Positions 1,303-58,440 of a DNA stretch of 64,000 nucleotides are shown piece after piece (the first letter of the stretch is position 1; every line of letters begins with the position of its first letter). A model generated the notes under the pieces. It made no database searches and had not been told where the DNA came from. It saw only the letters and a program-made list of their open reading frames with translations. The stretch covers positions 138,926,962 through 138,990,961 of the forward strand of contig CM077644.1 of assembly GCA_039707465.1 (NCBI GenBank), given 5' to 3'. Origin of the DNA: Rhabdophis nuchalis (Eukaryota > Chordata > Lepidosauria > Squamata > Natricidae). Position numbers and translations under genes: made by a program.

Positions 1303-1452
1303 CCCTAATGGGAACAATTGATTTCAAGAAGGTTGAGTTTTGATAATGTTAAACAAATGGCTGTGTTGATATTCAAAGGCCATAGCATCTACAATTAATA
1401 CAGTAATCTGAAATTGCATGTTACCATCAAACAGATCAAGACTTATTCCTAC

Positions 1453-1752
1453 CTTTCACAACTATTAGGTTGATGGTTTTACTCAAATTTCCATGTTTAA
1501 ATCCAAGATGGCATTGGTACTGTCCAGCATCTCCAGAATGGACATTGGATATATTTTTGATTGAGAAAGACTGATTGATGTTGTTTATGTTATGCTCCTT
1601 TATGACAATATTATTCTTAAGCCATTTCCAAGACTGGACTTTTGGAATCTCCTCATCTCTGTTTTCTTGCAGGTTAATATTCAAAGGACAGGAAAGGTGG
1701 ATGCTGCTGTTGATAGTGGCAAAATGGAACTCATCCAATGGATTGGAAAAAC
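1453..1752 (-). CDS. CD4: CD4-like exon: Ig domain 3
   Basis: The acceptor ATAAAATCAG ends at 1753 and the donor GTGAAAG|GTAGGAATAAG is at 1453. The 300-nt exon (phase 1-1) encodes a V-like domain with B-strand LSCPL, core WKWLKN, and F-strand GDAGQYQCHLG, ending TINLIVVK (mouse VNLVVMK). Mammalian CD4 D3 lacks both canonical cysteines (EFSFPL and GNLTL); here both are present, so D3 probably keeps the ancestral disulphide. Several N-x-S/T sequons are present (NSS, NQS, NIS, NLS). Confidence 0.8.
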
Positions 1753-3248
1753 CTGATTTTATGTCCAACCAAAATAGAAAGTAACATATGATCAGAATTG
1801 TGTGTATTGCTGCTTTTCTACTGTAGAAAAAGACTATGGCTCTTTCCCCTCCACAGTAGTGAGTTAAAATGCTACCCTTGAGATGGCAGAAAACATTTGC
1901 TTCCCTCCAAGCTAATCCCTACTCTGCGGCTGGTTCAGGTTACTGCTGAAAGGGATATTCTTGTTTTGTGAATGTGACACTCATTGATGGAAAAGTCATC
2001 AAAATAAAGAACGGGGAAATTGTTTTTAAAAAATCAACACATTCCAAGTTCAAGCTCCCTCATTGTTTTTGTGATGGCACAAGGACCACTGAGAAGTGTA
2101 ACAATATTTTTGCTTGGGCATACTGGAAGAAGAGATTCTGAAGTCTTTACTGAAACATTTGGCAAAAAACATATCTGATAAAATCACTATAGAGTCAATG
2201 GGCAGTAGTGAACTGAGAACAATAGCATTCTATCCAATCTGTAAAATAAATGTGAGTTAACATAGGATGTAAATTCCAGAAAAAGAGTCAGTGATGAAGT
2301 AACCTTATCTTGGCACAATGCAGTGATAGTGGAAGCAGTTGGCAGAGCTAATGATGCTTGATTCTGAACTTTTTATGAGGAAAGACTTTGAGAGTACCCA
2401 GGTTTCCAGGCTTTTTGAACCAAATTTAATGACTTCTCTTACCTAATACCTTGACATGGTAGAATAGGTTGATGTTATAATGAGAGATGTGACATTTCCA
2501 TATTCCATTATCCTCAACTGTAAGGTTTAATATCTGTAAGCTACCCGTTTGCAGTTTCCATCGTGGATCATTCTCTGATACTTTGGTTGTGTGGGGTTTA
2601 AACCATTCAATCCTGGTATCTTTGACAGGAGATAGAAGCAGCTTTAAAGTGTCACCTTGCAGGAGGTATCCCGTTTTAGATCCAGTAACTGTGAAGGAAA
2701 GAAAGAAGGCCTGCTGGTCAATTTTCCTTCCCATGCCTCTTCCCAAGGTTTATTTATTTGTTTAATTACTCCTTCAATAGCAGGGAGGAGAAGAGATAGA
2801 CAGAGACAAAGAGGCAGATTTCATGATCTCTGTTCCATCATTCACCTGTCCACACTTCAATATCATAAGTAGCCACCTGCTTTCCCTCCACCTCACAGAC
2901 ATATAGTCCAGGTTCTGCTTTTCGCAATTCTAGAGAAAAAGTCTCCTCATCCTTCAATATGTATGTTTCAGACCTGTCACCTTTGAAGAAAAAAGAACTG
3001 GATGAAATTAAACCTTAAACACAAAGACTCATATCTCTTTTTAATGGTTATTTGTGGAAGGGTTCCACCAGTTTCACCTTTATATAGGTTGCCGTTCATT
3101 TTCTTTACCAGAAGTTTTCCATTATATTTCCACATCATTCTTTTTGGAGCGTTTTCACCAGTTTCACTTTGACAGTGAAGGAAGACAGACTTGCCAGCAG
3201 CCACATTTATCTTCTCAGCCCTTGTGGAAAAAGTTGGCCCCAGAAGAG
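1453..3248 (-). CDS. CD4: CD4-like T-cell co-receptor, partial gene (D1-D3 exons)
   Basis: Four minus-strand exons (3248-3078, 2980-2846, 2688-2443, 1752-1453), all joined through phase-1 introns of 97, 157 and 690 bp, splice into one open frame of 284 codons. The product would be a surface glycoprotein that binds MHC class II on helper T cells. CD4-type signs are the intron inside the first Ig domain, the F-strand motif YVCEVEGKQ (human YICEVEDQK), the D2 opening YLLQGDTLKL (human HLLQGQSLTL), and the D2/D3 joint VKVLGF (mouse LSVLGF). Exon lengths (57, 45, 82, 100 codons) suit CD4. D4, transmembrane and LCK-binding tail exons are not in bases 1-1452, so the gene runs off the left edge. The leader exon must be above 3250 and was not identified. 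LAG3, the paralogue next to CD4 in mammals, is the alternative; D3 has some LAG3 flavour, but D1 and D2 fit CD4 better. No stop or frameshift breaks the frame. Confidence 0.82.
2443..2688 (-). CDS. CD4: CD4-like exon: Ig domain 2
   Basis: The acceptor CTTTCTTTCCTTCACAG ends at 2689 and the donor GTATTAG|GTAAGAG is at 2443. The 246-nt exon (phase 1-1) encodes a short C2-type domain that starts TGSKTGYLLQGDTLKL and ends with VEDNGIWKCHIS and FYHVKVLG. Only one cysteine (in WKCHI) is visible. Where mammalian D2 has its other cysteine (human SVQC), this protein has RIEW, so the D2 disulphide of mammals appears to be missing. Confidence 0.82.
2846..2980 (-). CDS. CD4: CD4-like exon: second half of Ig domain 1
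   Basis: The acceptor TTTTTTCTTCAAAG ends at 2981 and the donor GGACAG|GTGAAT is at 2846. The 135-nt exon (phase 1-1) encodes strands C'' to G of D1. It shows the L-E-L-R-K E strand, the A-E-P-G-L-Y-V-C F strand with the second disulphide cysteine, and the G strand VATYDIEVW leading into D2. The usual D-x-G/A-x-Y-x-C motif has E in place of D. Confidence 0.82.
3078..3248 (-). CDS. CD4: CD4-like exon: end of leader and first half of Ig domain 1
   Basis: The acceptor TTTCTAG ends at 3249 and the donor AAAG|GTGAAA sits at 3078/3077. The 171-nt exon starts and ends in phase 1. It reads from the end of the signal peptide (LLGPTFS...) into strands A to C of a V-type domain: GKSVFLHCQS carries the B-strand cysteine and MMWKYNGK the core tryptophan. 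It ends at NLYKG, the same place where human CD4 D1 (FLTKG) is interrupted. The splice sites were chosen because both neighbouring exons then join in frame. Confidence 0.82.
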
Positions 3249-54577: not shown

Positions 54578-56680
54578 TATTTATTTATTTTATTTTATTT
54601 TATTATATTTATACCCCGCCCTTCTCCAAGCGGACCCAGGGCGGCGCACAGGGATGTTAAAATACATACAAAACATAATAAAATTTTAAAAAACATATTC
54701 TAATAAAATCCTGTGCTAAAACCGAATTAAAAATCCCAAATTTAAAACTATCTAGGAGTCAGTAATGGAGGTTACGCTAGGCCGGCTAGATGGAATAGAT
54801 GTGTCTTCAGACACTTGCGGAAGAGGCGGAGGTCGGAGATGGTGTGGAGTTCAGGGGGTAAGTCGTTCCAAAGGGCTGGTCCCGCCACAGAGAAGGCTCT
54901 TCCCCTGGGTGTCGCCAGTCGGCATTGTCCAGCCGACGGCACCCTGAGGAGACCCTCCCTGTGGGAGCGTATCGGTCTGAGGGATGTATGGGGCAGGAGG
55001 CGGTCTCGCATGTAACTAGGCCCCGAGCAATGGAGCACTTTAAAGATGGTCGTTAAAACCTTGAAGCGCACCCGAAAGACCACAGGAAGCCAGTGGAGCT
55101 CGCGCAGGATAGGTGTTATGTGGGAGTGTCTAGGCACTCCCGTAATCACCCGCGCGGCTGCATTCTGGACTAGCTGCAGCTTTCGGGTGCACCTCAAGGG
55201 AAGCCCCATGTAGAGAGCATTACAGTAGTCGAGTCGAGAGGTGACGAGTGCTTGAGTGACTGTGCGTAAGGCACCCCGGTCCAGTAAGGGGCGCAATTGG
55301 CGCATCAGGCGTACCTGATGGAACGCCCCCCTGGCCACGGCTGCCACATGGTCCTCCATAGACAGCCGGGAATCCAGGAGGAGACCCAAATTGCGCGCCC
55401 TCTCCACGGGGGCCGGTGTTTCGCCCCCAATGGCCAGAGTTGGAATAATCTGGCTGAACCGGGGCGCCGGAAGCCACAGCCACTCAGTCTTGGACGGGTT
55501 GAGCTTGAGTTTGTTACTACCCATCCAGATCCGTACGGCCTCCAAGCACCGGGACATAACCTCGACGGCATCGTTGGGGTGGTCTGAGGTGGATATGTAC
55601 AACTGAGTATGATCAGCATACAGATGATATCCCACCCCAAAACCACGGATGATCTCACCCAGCGGCTTCATATATGTGTTGAACAGTAGGGGCGAGAGGA
55701 CCGACCCCTGAGGAACCCCACATATGAGGGGCCTCGAGGCCGACCTCTGCCCCACTGCCAACACATATTGCGACCGACCAGAGAGGTAGGACGAGAACCA
55801 CCGCAAAACGGTGCCTCCCAGCCCCAACCCCCCCAGTCGGCGCAATAGGATACCATGGTCGATGGTATCAAAAGCCGCTGAGAGGTCTAATAGGACTAGG
55901 ATAGAGGAATATCCTCTATCCCACGCCCTCCAGAGATCATCAACCAACACGACCAATGCCGTCTCAGTGCTGTGCCTGGGTTGGAAGCTGGACTGGCGCG
56001 GGTCTAGATAATCAACTTCCTCCAAGTGTCGCGGAAACTGTTGAGCCACCACACTCTCTACAACCTTCACTAAAAAGTGGAGGTTGGAGACGGAACGATA
56101 GTTCTCTAATAATGCTGGATCCAGGGACAGCTTCTTGAGGAGGGGCCTTACTACCGCCTCTTTCAAGATGGTAGGCAAGGACCCCTCACTCAAAGATGCG
56201 TTGACAATGCCCTGGAGCCAGCCTCGTGTCGTCTCCCAGGGTGCCAGTACAAGGCAGGAGGGACACGGGTCCAATAAACATGTGGTAGCCCTAAGTCTCT
56301 TTGACAACTTGTCCATATCCTCGGTGGTAATAAAATCAAACTCCTCCCAAGATGGTGTCACAAGAACAGCCTCGGCCCGCTCGACTGGACCACTGTCGAT
56401 GGAGGGTAGCTCGTTCCGAATCCGAGTGATTTTCTCCTGCAGATAAATCCCAAATTCCTCTGCTCGACCCTGTAAAGGGGCTTCCTGCGGCCTCTGTTGA
56501 AGGAGGGAGCGGGTCACCCTAAACAGGGCGGCAGGGCGGTTATCTGCAGATGCAATAAGAGTGGCACAATACTCATGTTTGGCCACTCTTATCGCCACTA
56601 AGTCCTAATATGGTCTCTCACTAGTGTTCGGTCAGCTTCGGAGTGAGAAGATCTCCATCTAGAACATAGTTCACCACTGA
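54578..56680 (-). mobile_element. L2-type LINE, 5' region missing, long RT ORF
   Basis: A 608-codon minus-strand frame (56598-54772) encodes the reverse transcriptase of an L2/CR1-group LINE. Fingers and palm motifs are in order: LLKKLSLDPALLENYRSVSN, then LLDLSAAFDTIDHGILL, GVPQGSVLSPLLFN, and the catalytic box. The C-terminal part has RELHWLPVVFRVRFKVL and LWNDLPPEL, typical of L2 tails. The 3' end (54740-54578) carries the CCCTGGGTCCGCTTGGAGAAGG-type tail ending in TTTAT-rich repeats. The catalytic YADD reads YADH (codon near 55610), so this copy should be inactive although otherwise open. The endonuclease domain is absent; the 5' limit is approximate. Confidence 0.85.
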
Positions 56681-56786
56681 CTGGGCAAAGGGCATCTTAA
56701 GGCTGGTGTGCTCACAAACTGGGGATGAGATGAGGAAAGACAACATCACAGTGATATAGCTAAAAGATGTTGCCAGAGCATCTTGT

Positions 56787-57273
56787 CAGAGCCGTCTTTA
56801 CACCATTTTGGGCCCCTGGGCATAGAAATAGTGTTGGGCCCCCGGGCAAATGCCCAACGGGCCTATGCGTTAAGACGGCACTGCCGCCGCCGCCGGCTGC
56901 AGAGCTTTCCTTGCTCCTCTCGCTCCGACCAGCCCGCCCTGGCTCCCCTCCCACCCACCGGCTTCCCCTGCCCTGGCGGAGGGAGAACGTGTTCGCCTCT
57001 GGGCCGGCAAGATGGCGGCATCGGCGGGGTCCGGGGAGCCTGACCTGGGGGCGGGCGGGGAGCCCCGCGCTCTCTCCCCGGAGGAGATCGCCCGCCGGCT
57101 GCAGAGCACAAGGCGGGAGCTGAGCAACAGGCGCAAGATTCTGCTGAGGAACCTGCCCGCCGAAAGCAGCAGCCAGGTGGGTGGCGAAGAGGCAGAATAA
57201 TTTGCCCGGGGGCCCCTATGATCGTGGGCCCCCGGGCAAATGCCCAACGGGCCTATGCATTAAGACAGGATTG
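56787..57273 (+). mobile_element. composite hAT-type element carrying a captured host first exon
   Basis: The 487-bp unit is flanked by perfect 8-bp target-site duplications CATCTTGT (56779-56786 and 57274-57281). Its left end CAGAGCCGTCTT is matched inversely by CAGTGCCGTCTT at 56884 (reading back) and, more decayed, by the outer right end (reading back CAATCCTGTCTT). A complete short MITE (56787-56884) is followed by 300 bp of very GC-rich DNA and then a second copy of the MITE right half. Bases 56835-56880 and 57225-57270 are a 46-bp direct repeat. The layout suggests that the outer left end of one copy and the right end of another mobilised everything between them. Confidence 0.75.
57012..57200 (+). 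pseudogene. captured RAVER2-like first coding exon with splice donor
   Basis: Inside the composite hAT unit an ATG at 57012 (context GCAAGATGGCGG) opens 55 codons that end exactly at a consensus donor, AGCCAG|GTGGGT (57176/57177). Read-through adds seven codons to TAA at 57200. The C-terminal half reads P-E-E-I-A-R-R-L-Q-S then R-R-E-L-S-N-R-R-K-I-L-L-R-N-L-P. This closely resembles the N-terminus of raver-2 (PEEVAARLQ, RELSNRRKILVKNLP), the segment leading into the first RRM of this PTB-binding protein. Upstream GC-rich DNA (56885-57011) looks like the matching 5' untranslated region. No second exon follows, so it is a fragment, but the frame and donor are undamaged. Raver-1 is a less similar alternative. 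Confidence 0.7.
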
Positions 57274-57624
57274 CATCTTGTTTAAGTGCTGTTGGGGACA
57301 CAGTCTATCTACAGTACTATTCTATCATTAAACAAAAAGTCAAGCTCTTCTAACAACAAATATTTGTCTATTTGATTCCATTTTTCAAAGCAGTGGCTTT
57401 ATTTTATATGCAATAGCAAATATGTGTTTTGTTTTTGTGCATATTTTAATTAATTCCCATTCGAAAAAAATATTAGAATTGCAACTGGCCCATGGGGGCA
57501 ACCAAACAATAGTTGAGACTACCAAATTGGAATATTTTTTTTATTTGGCAAGTTTGATTTGACACACAAGGAATTTGTCTCCAGTGAATTAGCTCTCAGA
57601 AACAACAATGCTGAAATTCATAAC

Positions 57625-58440
57625 AATGCTTTTTATCATGTTCGCCTGATACGCCAGTTGTGTCCCTTTCTGGATCGTGACGCTCTACGCACGGTCACTC
57701 AAGCCCTCGTTATTTCCCGCCTGGACTATTGCAATGCTCTCTACATGGGGCTCCCCTTGAGGTGCACCCGGAGGCTCCAGCTGGTTCAGAATGCGGCTGC
57801 GTGGGGGATTCTGGGGGCCTCTAGATGCTCCCATGTAACACCTCTCCTGCGTGAGCTGCAGTGGCTGCCTGTGGCCTTCCGGGTGCGCTTCAAGGTGTTA
57901 GTAACAACCTTTAAAGCGCTCCATGGCAAGGGATCTAGGCATCTGCAAGACCACCTCCTACCAAATACCTCCCTCCGACCAGTCCGCTCCCACAGAGAGG
58001 GCCTCCTCAAAGTGCCGTTGGCCAGTCAATGCCGGCTGGCGACCCCTAGGGGGAGAGCCTTCTCTGTGGCAGCTCCTGCCCTCTGGAATGACCTACCCCC
58101 TGACCTACGCACAACCACGGACCTGCGCCTTTTTCGCTGAGCCCTGAAAACCCATCTATTTCGTGCGGCCGGCCTGGCATAGTTTTTTATTTGTTTTATT
58201 AGAGGTTTTATAGGTTATTTTAGAGCAGGCCCATTGTTTAATTTAGTTTTAGATTTTTAGTATATTTATTGAATTATTGGATGTTTTATTGTGGTTTTTA
58301 TTATTGCCTGTTCACCTCCCTGAGTCACGCAAGGGAGAAAGGGCGGTATACAAATGTAATCAATCAATCAATTAAATAAATAAATAAATGAATGAATGAA
58401 TGAATGAATGAATGAATGAATGAATGAATAAATAAATAAA
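57625..58440 (+). mobile_element. L2-type LINE 3' fragment with tetranucleotide tail
   Basis: The frame from about 57630 reads AFYHVRLIRQLCPFLDRDAL, then LQWLPVAFRVRFKVL and LWNDLPPDLRTTTDLRLFR. A TGA at 58138 replaces one codon before ALKTHLFRAAGLA. The 3' tail contains GGGAGAAAGGGCGGTATACA followed by (AATC)n, (AATA)n and (AATG)n to 58440. It is a different subfamily from the two minus-strand L2 copies, to judge by its tail. Confidence 0.8.

Follow-up and report, generated by a model that had tools for sequence, protein, structure and literature searches.

A putative non-autonomous Pack-type transposon with hAT-like ends carries the RAVER2 first exon in the genome of Rhabdophis nuchalis

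Host gene fragments captured by DNA transposons have been surveyed in animals by Tan et al. (2021; PMC8277862), who counted 370 Pack-TIRs across 100 animal genomes, with 208 of these residing in hAT elements. Four multicopy Pack-TIR cases, from frog and alligator, are given there; the discussion names a frog case with five copies and the worked hAT example has three insertions. In the plant literature, the Pack-TYPE elements (PMC8903248) are likewise non-autonomous DNA transposons that capture gene fragments, the difference being their plant hosts. In bats, Helitrons offer a further likeness as vertebrate transposons that have captured and mobilised gene fragments (PMC4778049).

The window analyzed here is a stretch of 64,000 nucleotides (C2:138926962-138990961, C denoting a contig), and the genome searched, which contains it, comprises 1.92 Gb. 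A sequence-only reading of the window had proposed a vertebrate Pack-type hAT element in which two MITE copies flank a raver-2-like first exon and move it as one unit. The unit was found to span 56787-57273 (487 bp), with hAT-like ends and, as that reading had held, a perfect 8-bp target duplication on either side. Its features in window coordinates are:

56779-56786, no strand: left target-site duplication CATCTTGT, an exact 8-mer repeat
56787-56883, + strand: 97-bp left terminal unit with paired ends; its 40 best of 292 genome matches all lie in Pack units
56884-57011, + strand: captured RAVER2 5' leader, a portion of the native CpG island, gaplessly colinear with the native locus
57012-57176, + strand: captured RAVER2 first coding exon of 55 codons, intact, from frame and protein matches
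57177-57197, + strand: splice donor GTGGGT inside 21 bp of RAVER2 intron 1; the native intron is identical up to 57197
57198-57208, no strand: junction scar of two filler bases and ATTTGCCCG, part of an inverted pair; not in the non-Pack right end L099
57209-57273, + strand: right terminal fragment of the hAT-like element; 62 of 65 bases the same as L099, 218 core-pattern matches
57274-57281, no strand: right target-site duplication CATCTTGT, an exact 8-mer repeat

Identical 8-mers at a spacing of 495 were present at only 7 of 63,497 window start positions, two of the seven being the CATCTTGT pair. The host-derived stretch between the 97-bp unit and the scar (56884-57197, 314 bp) is GC-rich, with 0.61-0.80 GC per 100 bp across 56900-57199 and 0.30 from 57300 on. 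This agrees with the GC-rich cargo proposed earlier, as do the 55-codon frame at 57012-57176 with GTGGGT behind it and the second copy of the right half, which lies at 57225-57274 with 92% identity over 50 nt and a spacing of 390 bp from the first. The proposed complete MITE held in part: the termini of the 97-bp segment pair at 13 of 15 bases, but no free 97-bp element was seen among the 40 best of 292 genome matches: 39 of them coincide with right junctions, and the remaining one, on C19, with a left junction. We read the 97-bp unit as a left end fused to a right end, such as would remain of a hAT-like element after deletion down to a minimal form. On either side of the unit, at 54772-56604 (-) and 57517-58140 (+), frames resembling LINE reverse transcriptase were recognized by eye. 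Elsewhere in the window, an immunoglobulin-domain-like frame at 1436-1918 (-), with contactin-5 as its best PDB match (E 6.2e-7), may possibly be an exon of a host gene.

The origin of the cargo was investigated by protein searches and by comparison with the native gene. Against the PDB, the 55-codon frame matched chains of raver-1 (E 1.1e-5), and a search scored on the 55 residues alone returned 160 proteins. Among the 120 listed, the best match was RAVER2 of Thamnophis elegans, with 93% identity over the full frame; the alignment showed one substitution and a 3-residue gap. The top five of those 120 were snake proteins. Homology ended at Q55, where EIH continues in 8 of 10 aligned proteins, and as GTGGGT follows directly after Q55, this break corresponds to the exon-intron boundary. 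Searches against Rfam, for tRNA and against Pfam (55-aa frame) gave no match, and viral contigs gave no exact-pattern match.

The native RAVER2 exon 1 was located at C2:76807987-76808151, with further exons up to 76858597, and is flanked on either side by continuing CpG island. It lies 62 Mb from the window copy on the same contig, so the exon in the window is not contiguous with its gene, and the comparison with the true RAVER2 locus that had been suggested came out in favor of a displaced copy. All 314 bp of the cargo (unit positions 98-411) are colinear with native exon 1 and its surroundings at 97.5% identity without a gap. The cargo is derived from the RAVER2 gene of this genome, and its earlier assignment to a raver-2 first exon was correct. 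The native sequence and the family consensus differ at five positions. No transposon was present at either of the native junctions in the one reference allele, and nothing in the surrounding 30 kb (C2:76798000-76827999) matched the 97-bp unit better than a stretch of 27 bp (85%, E 0.019). Both the Pack and the native gene are without residues that are retained in five other aligned snake RAVER2 proteins; therefore, capture probably took place in this lineage. One Pack copy (C2:76775872-76776349), oriented oppositely to the native gene, is located ∼32 kb upstream of its exon 1. A 16-bp perfect repeat in the cargo (56890 and 57092; the longest in 200 shuffles was 12) was considered as a capture signature and rejected, because the pair also exists natively, with one mismatch, and was made perfect by a single substitution in the window unit.

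Copies of the unit were searched for by similarity and by junction patterns. In the first DNA search the best 40 of 253 candidates matched the unit over nearly its whole length at 96-100%. The pattern joining captured intron to right end was found at 84 genome sites (67 exact, 16 with one mismatch and 1 with two) and its reversed control at none; the left-junction pattern occurred at 72 sites, again with a control of 0. The lack of any other copy, earlier named as grounds for giving up transposition, was thus not what the search of the unit against the genome returned. A total of 79 of the 84 right-junction sites was examined, in a first set of 59, all within the 84, and a later set of 20. The sites outside the 79 are C4:165493861, C4:173020141, C5:11793464 and C6:44057191, where the left junction is also present, and C1:246189079, a candidate right-junction site with 2 mismatches. 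At C19:13380114 the 97-bp unit and left junction occur with no right-junction match. Full-length copies, some with deletions, were found at 75 of the 79 sites, the truncated ones (2 of 59 and 2 of 20) being left out of alignments. Two copies (L080 and L094) contain extra internal sequence, with spans of 919 and 531 bp, and still have perfect target duplications. A 1863-aa open frame around one Pack copy was an artefact of an assembly gap of N beside it.

The flanking 8-mers of the 75 full-length copies agreed at 8 of 8 positions in 65, at 7 in 8 and at 6 in 2 (for L052 the end was shifted by 1 bp before comparison), and displaced controls had identical flanking 8-mers in 4 of 675 cases. Among the 65 perfect target duplications, 62 were distinct. 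Two copies, L027 and L037, are inserted inside repeats, and relatives of these repeats flanking L036 and L032 are uninterrupted and have one 8-bp site. In each case 2 of the 8 bases are not the same in the empty and the filled site; these are paralogous repeats in the same genome and not orthologous sites in relatives. The distinct duplications together with the empty sites show that the whole unit transposed: over 60 independent insertions, marked by 8-bp duplications, took place. The sequence-only reading, which had exon and ends moving as one unit and had suggested a look for empty sites, is supported on the first count by the 62 distinct perfect duplications and on the second by these two counterparts within the genome.

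Terminal inverted repeats of hAT elements are short and begin with CA(G/N). The termini of the family consensus are CAGAGCCGTCTTTAC and, reversed, CAATGCCGTCTTAAC, a hAT-type inverted-repeat start, and the 8-bp length of the target duplication, perfect in 65 of 75 full-length copies, is that of hAT elements. It has a copy of a host locus inside, transposon sequence at both ends and multiple copies by transposition, as Pack-TIRs do. By its ends, duplications and RAVER2 cargo, the unit qualifies as a putative non-autonomous vertebrate Pack-type transposon with hAT-like ends, much as had been suggested.

The manner of capture was examined at the two junctions. The last 65 bases of the unit match L099, a single ordinary right end, at 62 positions, beginning at the palindrome GGGGCCCC. 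Inward of GGGGCCCC the Pack has a 16-nt inverted copy of element sequence (57200-57215, beginning with ATTTGCCCG and pairing with 57226-57241) and, ahead of the RAVER2 intron, two filler bases, where L099 has unrelated sequence. A palindromic MITE as the source of the right end was rejected because the inverted part is missing from L099; on the evidence of this one element, that part was treated as a scar, which suggests template switching at the palindrome. At the left junction the 97-bp unit is complete to its terminal base, and this would fit a clean insertion with bypass of the inner end better than template switching. We lean slightly toward a capture that would have arisen once, the RAVER2 piece being joined to an element end by template switching or else by aberrant repair there.

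The principal alternative is that two independent MITEs flanked RAVER2 exon 1 at the donor locus and that their outer ends mobilized everything between them. It draws on the left junction, where the captured sequence starts directly after the final base of an entire 97-bp unit, as it would after a clean insertion, and on the identity of the two right-end copies over 49 bp in the family consensus. We nevertheless consider it unlikely. In the one reference allele, both junctions of native RAVER2 are free of elements; of 292 matches to the 97-bp unit, every one of the 40 best is inside a Pack unit; and the right piece has no left end of its own and carries the inverted scar. The two pre-existing MITEs of the sequence-only reading therefore found no support at the native locus or among these matches, and its second MITE copy turned out to be the terminal fragment of a longer element plus a scar.

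The age of the copies was estimated from their divergence. Mean divergence from the consensus was 0.94% outside CpG and 7.3% at CpG, and CpG sites accounted for 25 of the 27 changes common to at least five of the first 57 copies, a pattern consistent with a burst from few sources. Of the 75 full-length copies, 65 kept the ATG, the frame without stops and the GT donor together; these were 37 of the 40 DNA-ranked, 16 of the 17 protein-ranked and 12 of the 18 pattern-found copies. Such conservation could be expected if the 55-codon peptide or exon had been retained by selection. The first 57 copies also had 105 nonsynonymous changes, below all 400 neutral simulations (an equally low N/S ratio was obtained in 18 of 400), and the 40 DNA-ranked copies had 18 non-CpG nonsynonymous changes vs 28.9 expected. 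However, 17 of the 57 copies had been picked by protein match and were biased to intact proteins, and the deficit over the 57 is owed largely to them; it was rejected as a sign of selection. When every nonsynonymous change is counted, the DNA-ranked 40 had 70 vs 78 expected and were not depleted at CpG; the 18 copies found by pattern, a small set, had 60 vs 46 and so no deficit. Over all 75 copies there were 165 nonsynonymous changes vs 181 expected and 90 synonymous vs 92. The number of intact copies among the 57 (53) agreed with a neutral substitution simulation (mean 52.7). Retention by selection is very improbable on these counts; the copies are young and decay about neutrally, and we take their intactness to reflect youth.

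Spread of the copies through segmental duplication would also multiply the unit, and within contig C13 this did occur. There, the target CTAGTGGG is shared by four copies and, in degenerate form, by a fifth (L069, L071, L073, L095 and L096), and the three that were compared are 97-99% identical into their flanks, so that these C13 copies are later segmental duplicates. The contig itself, judged from these five copies, contains young segmental duplications. For the family as a whole the explanation was rejected and has hardly any probability left, since the remaining perfect target duplications all differ. Moreover, only those three of the first 59 share the full 400-bp left and adjoining right flank, and other pairs share pieces, as expected for flanks in common repeats. 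That the window exon is simply exon 1 of RAVER2 in its native place, next to which MITEs have inserted, would account for the intact frame and donor, but is refuted to near certainty by the native locus 62 Mb off, by the 30% GC just downstream in the window as against CpG island on both sides of the native exon, and by target duplications that enclose the entire unit.

The relatives of the Pack ends were explored with end patterns. Among 78 loci examined, none had an element copy apart from the Packs. A right-end core pattern gave 218 genome matches including Pack copies (control 0, 100 listed), and a left subterminal pattern gave 160, including a tandem array on C5 (control 0, 100 listed). 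Among the 100 listed of the 218 there were 35 non-Pack right ends, and 27 of these 35 had a co-oriented left end within 8 kb. From such end pairs, related non-Pack elements of ∼0.2-4.5 kb were inferred, the long ones extending over ∼4.2-4.5 kb; the Pack ends are thus shared with a broader family, some of whose members are long. The array (C5:6806661-6807124) repeats left subterminal sequence mostly at 26-bp spacing and is away from any Pack. A search for the hAT dimerization domain (PF05699) had 862 candidates, of which 150 were scored, all above cut-off; by comparison of positions by eye, none of the 150 lay in the five longest relatives. These five span C1:53943117-53947481, C5:48093324-48097715, C5:67383420-67387547, C2:209269276-209272898 and C5:115875369-115878159. 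The list was dominated by another abundant hAT family, whose near-identical PF05699 scores and lack of stops in the scored matches suggest recent hAT activity in this genome.

Taken together, the unit would be moved through its outermost ends by a transposase encoded elsewhere. We place the probability of this reading, comprising the steps established above and mobilization in trans, at about 0.95; the figure applies to neither the capture step nor a gene-trap effect. As to the latter, each sense insertion within an intron could work as a gene trap, as the family would spread a predicted CpG-island promoter, an ATG and a donor. It is conceivable, if rather doubtful, that host genes acquire a new RAVER2-derived first exon from some of the sense insertions. 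Proteins matching the frame were RAVER proteins by name or, among those inspected as sequence, mostly read-through of exon 1 into the intron, with one short bird prediction; no snake chimera was recognized among these matches, most of them judged by name and including 120 of the 160 from the 55-residue search. Two hypothetical proteins, P0124 (Lerista edwardsae) and P0001 (Hirundo rustica), have RAVER2 exon 1 followed by other sequence; P0124 reads through the donor, and both are probably annotation errors. So many natural copies of one first exon in one genome amount to a natural replicate experiment, in which the creation of chimeric genes, its frequency and selection against sense insertions can be asked about with ordinary RNA data.

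Helitrons are rolling-circle elements without target duplications or inverted ends and in this are unlike the RAVER2 Pack. No published report of the RAVER2 Pack family was found in the titles and abstract openings of the best literature matches, which included few subscription journals. In PMC8277862, the closest counterpart is hAT-N8_XT of the frog, which is also a non-autonomous hAT-type element with a host 5' gene fragment (291 bp of CAPSL 5'UTR), distinct target duplications and a parent locus elsewhere. Three transposition events are given there for hAT-N8_XT, compared with 84 junction sites for the RAVER2 Pack, whose cargo differs in that it takes in an ATG, a first coding exon and its splice donor. 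The Drosophila Ssk-FB4 of the same source is likewise a multicopy Pack element, but it is described as containing nearly a whole gene, in four polymorphic copies with MULE-like ends, and as having evidence of expression and selection. The template-switch-then-transpose model (FoSTeST), as outlined in that article, fits the right junction of the RAVER2 Pack. Animal Pack-TIRs are thus already known, and the RAVER2 family is unusual among them in its copy number and in carrying ATG, exon and donor together.
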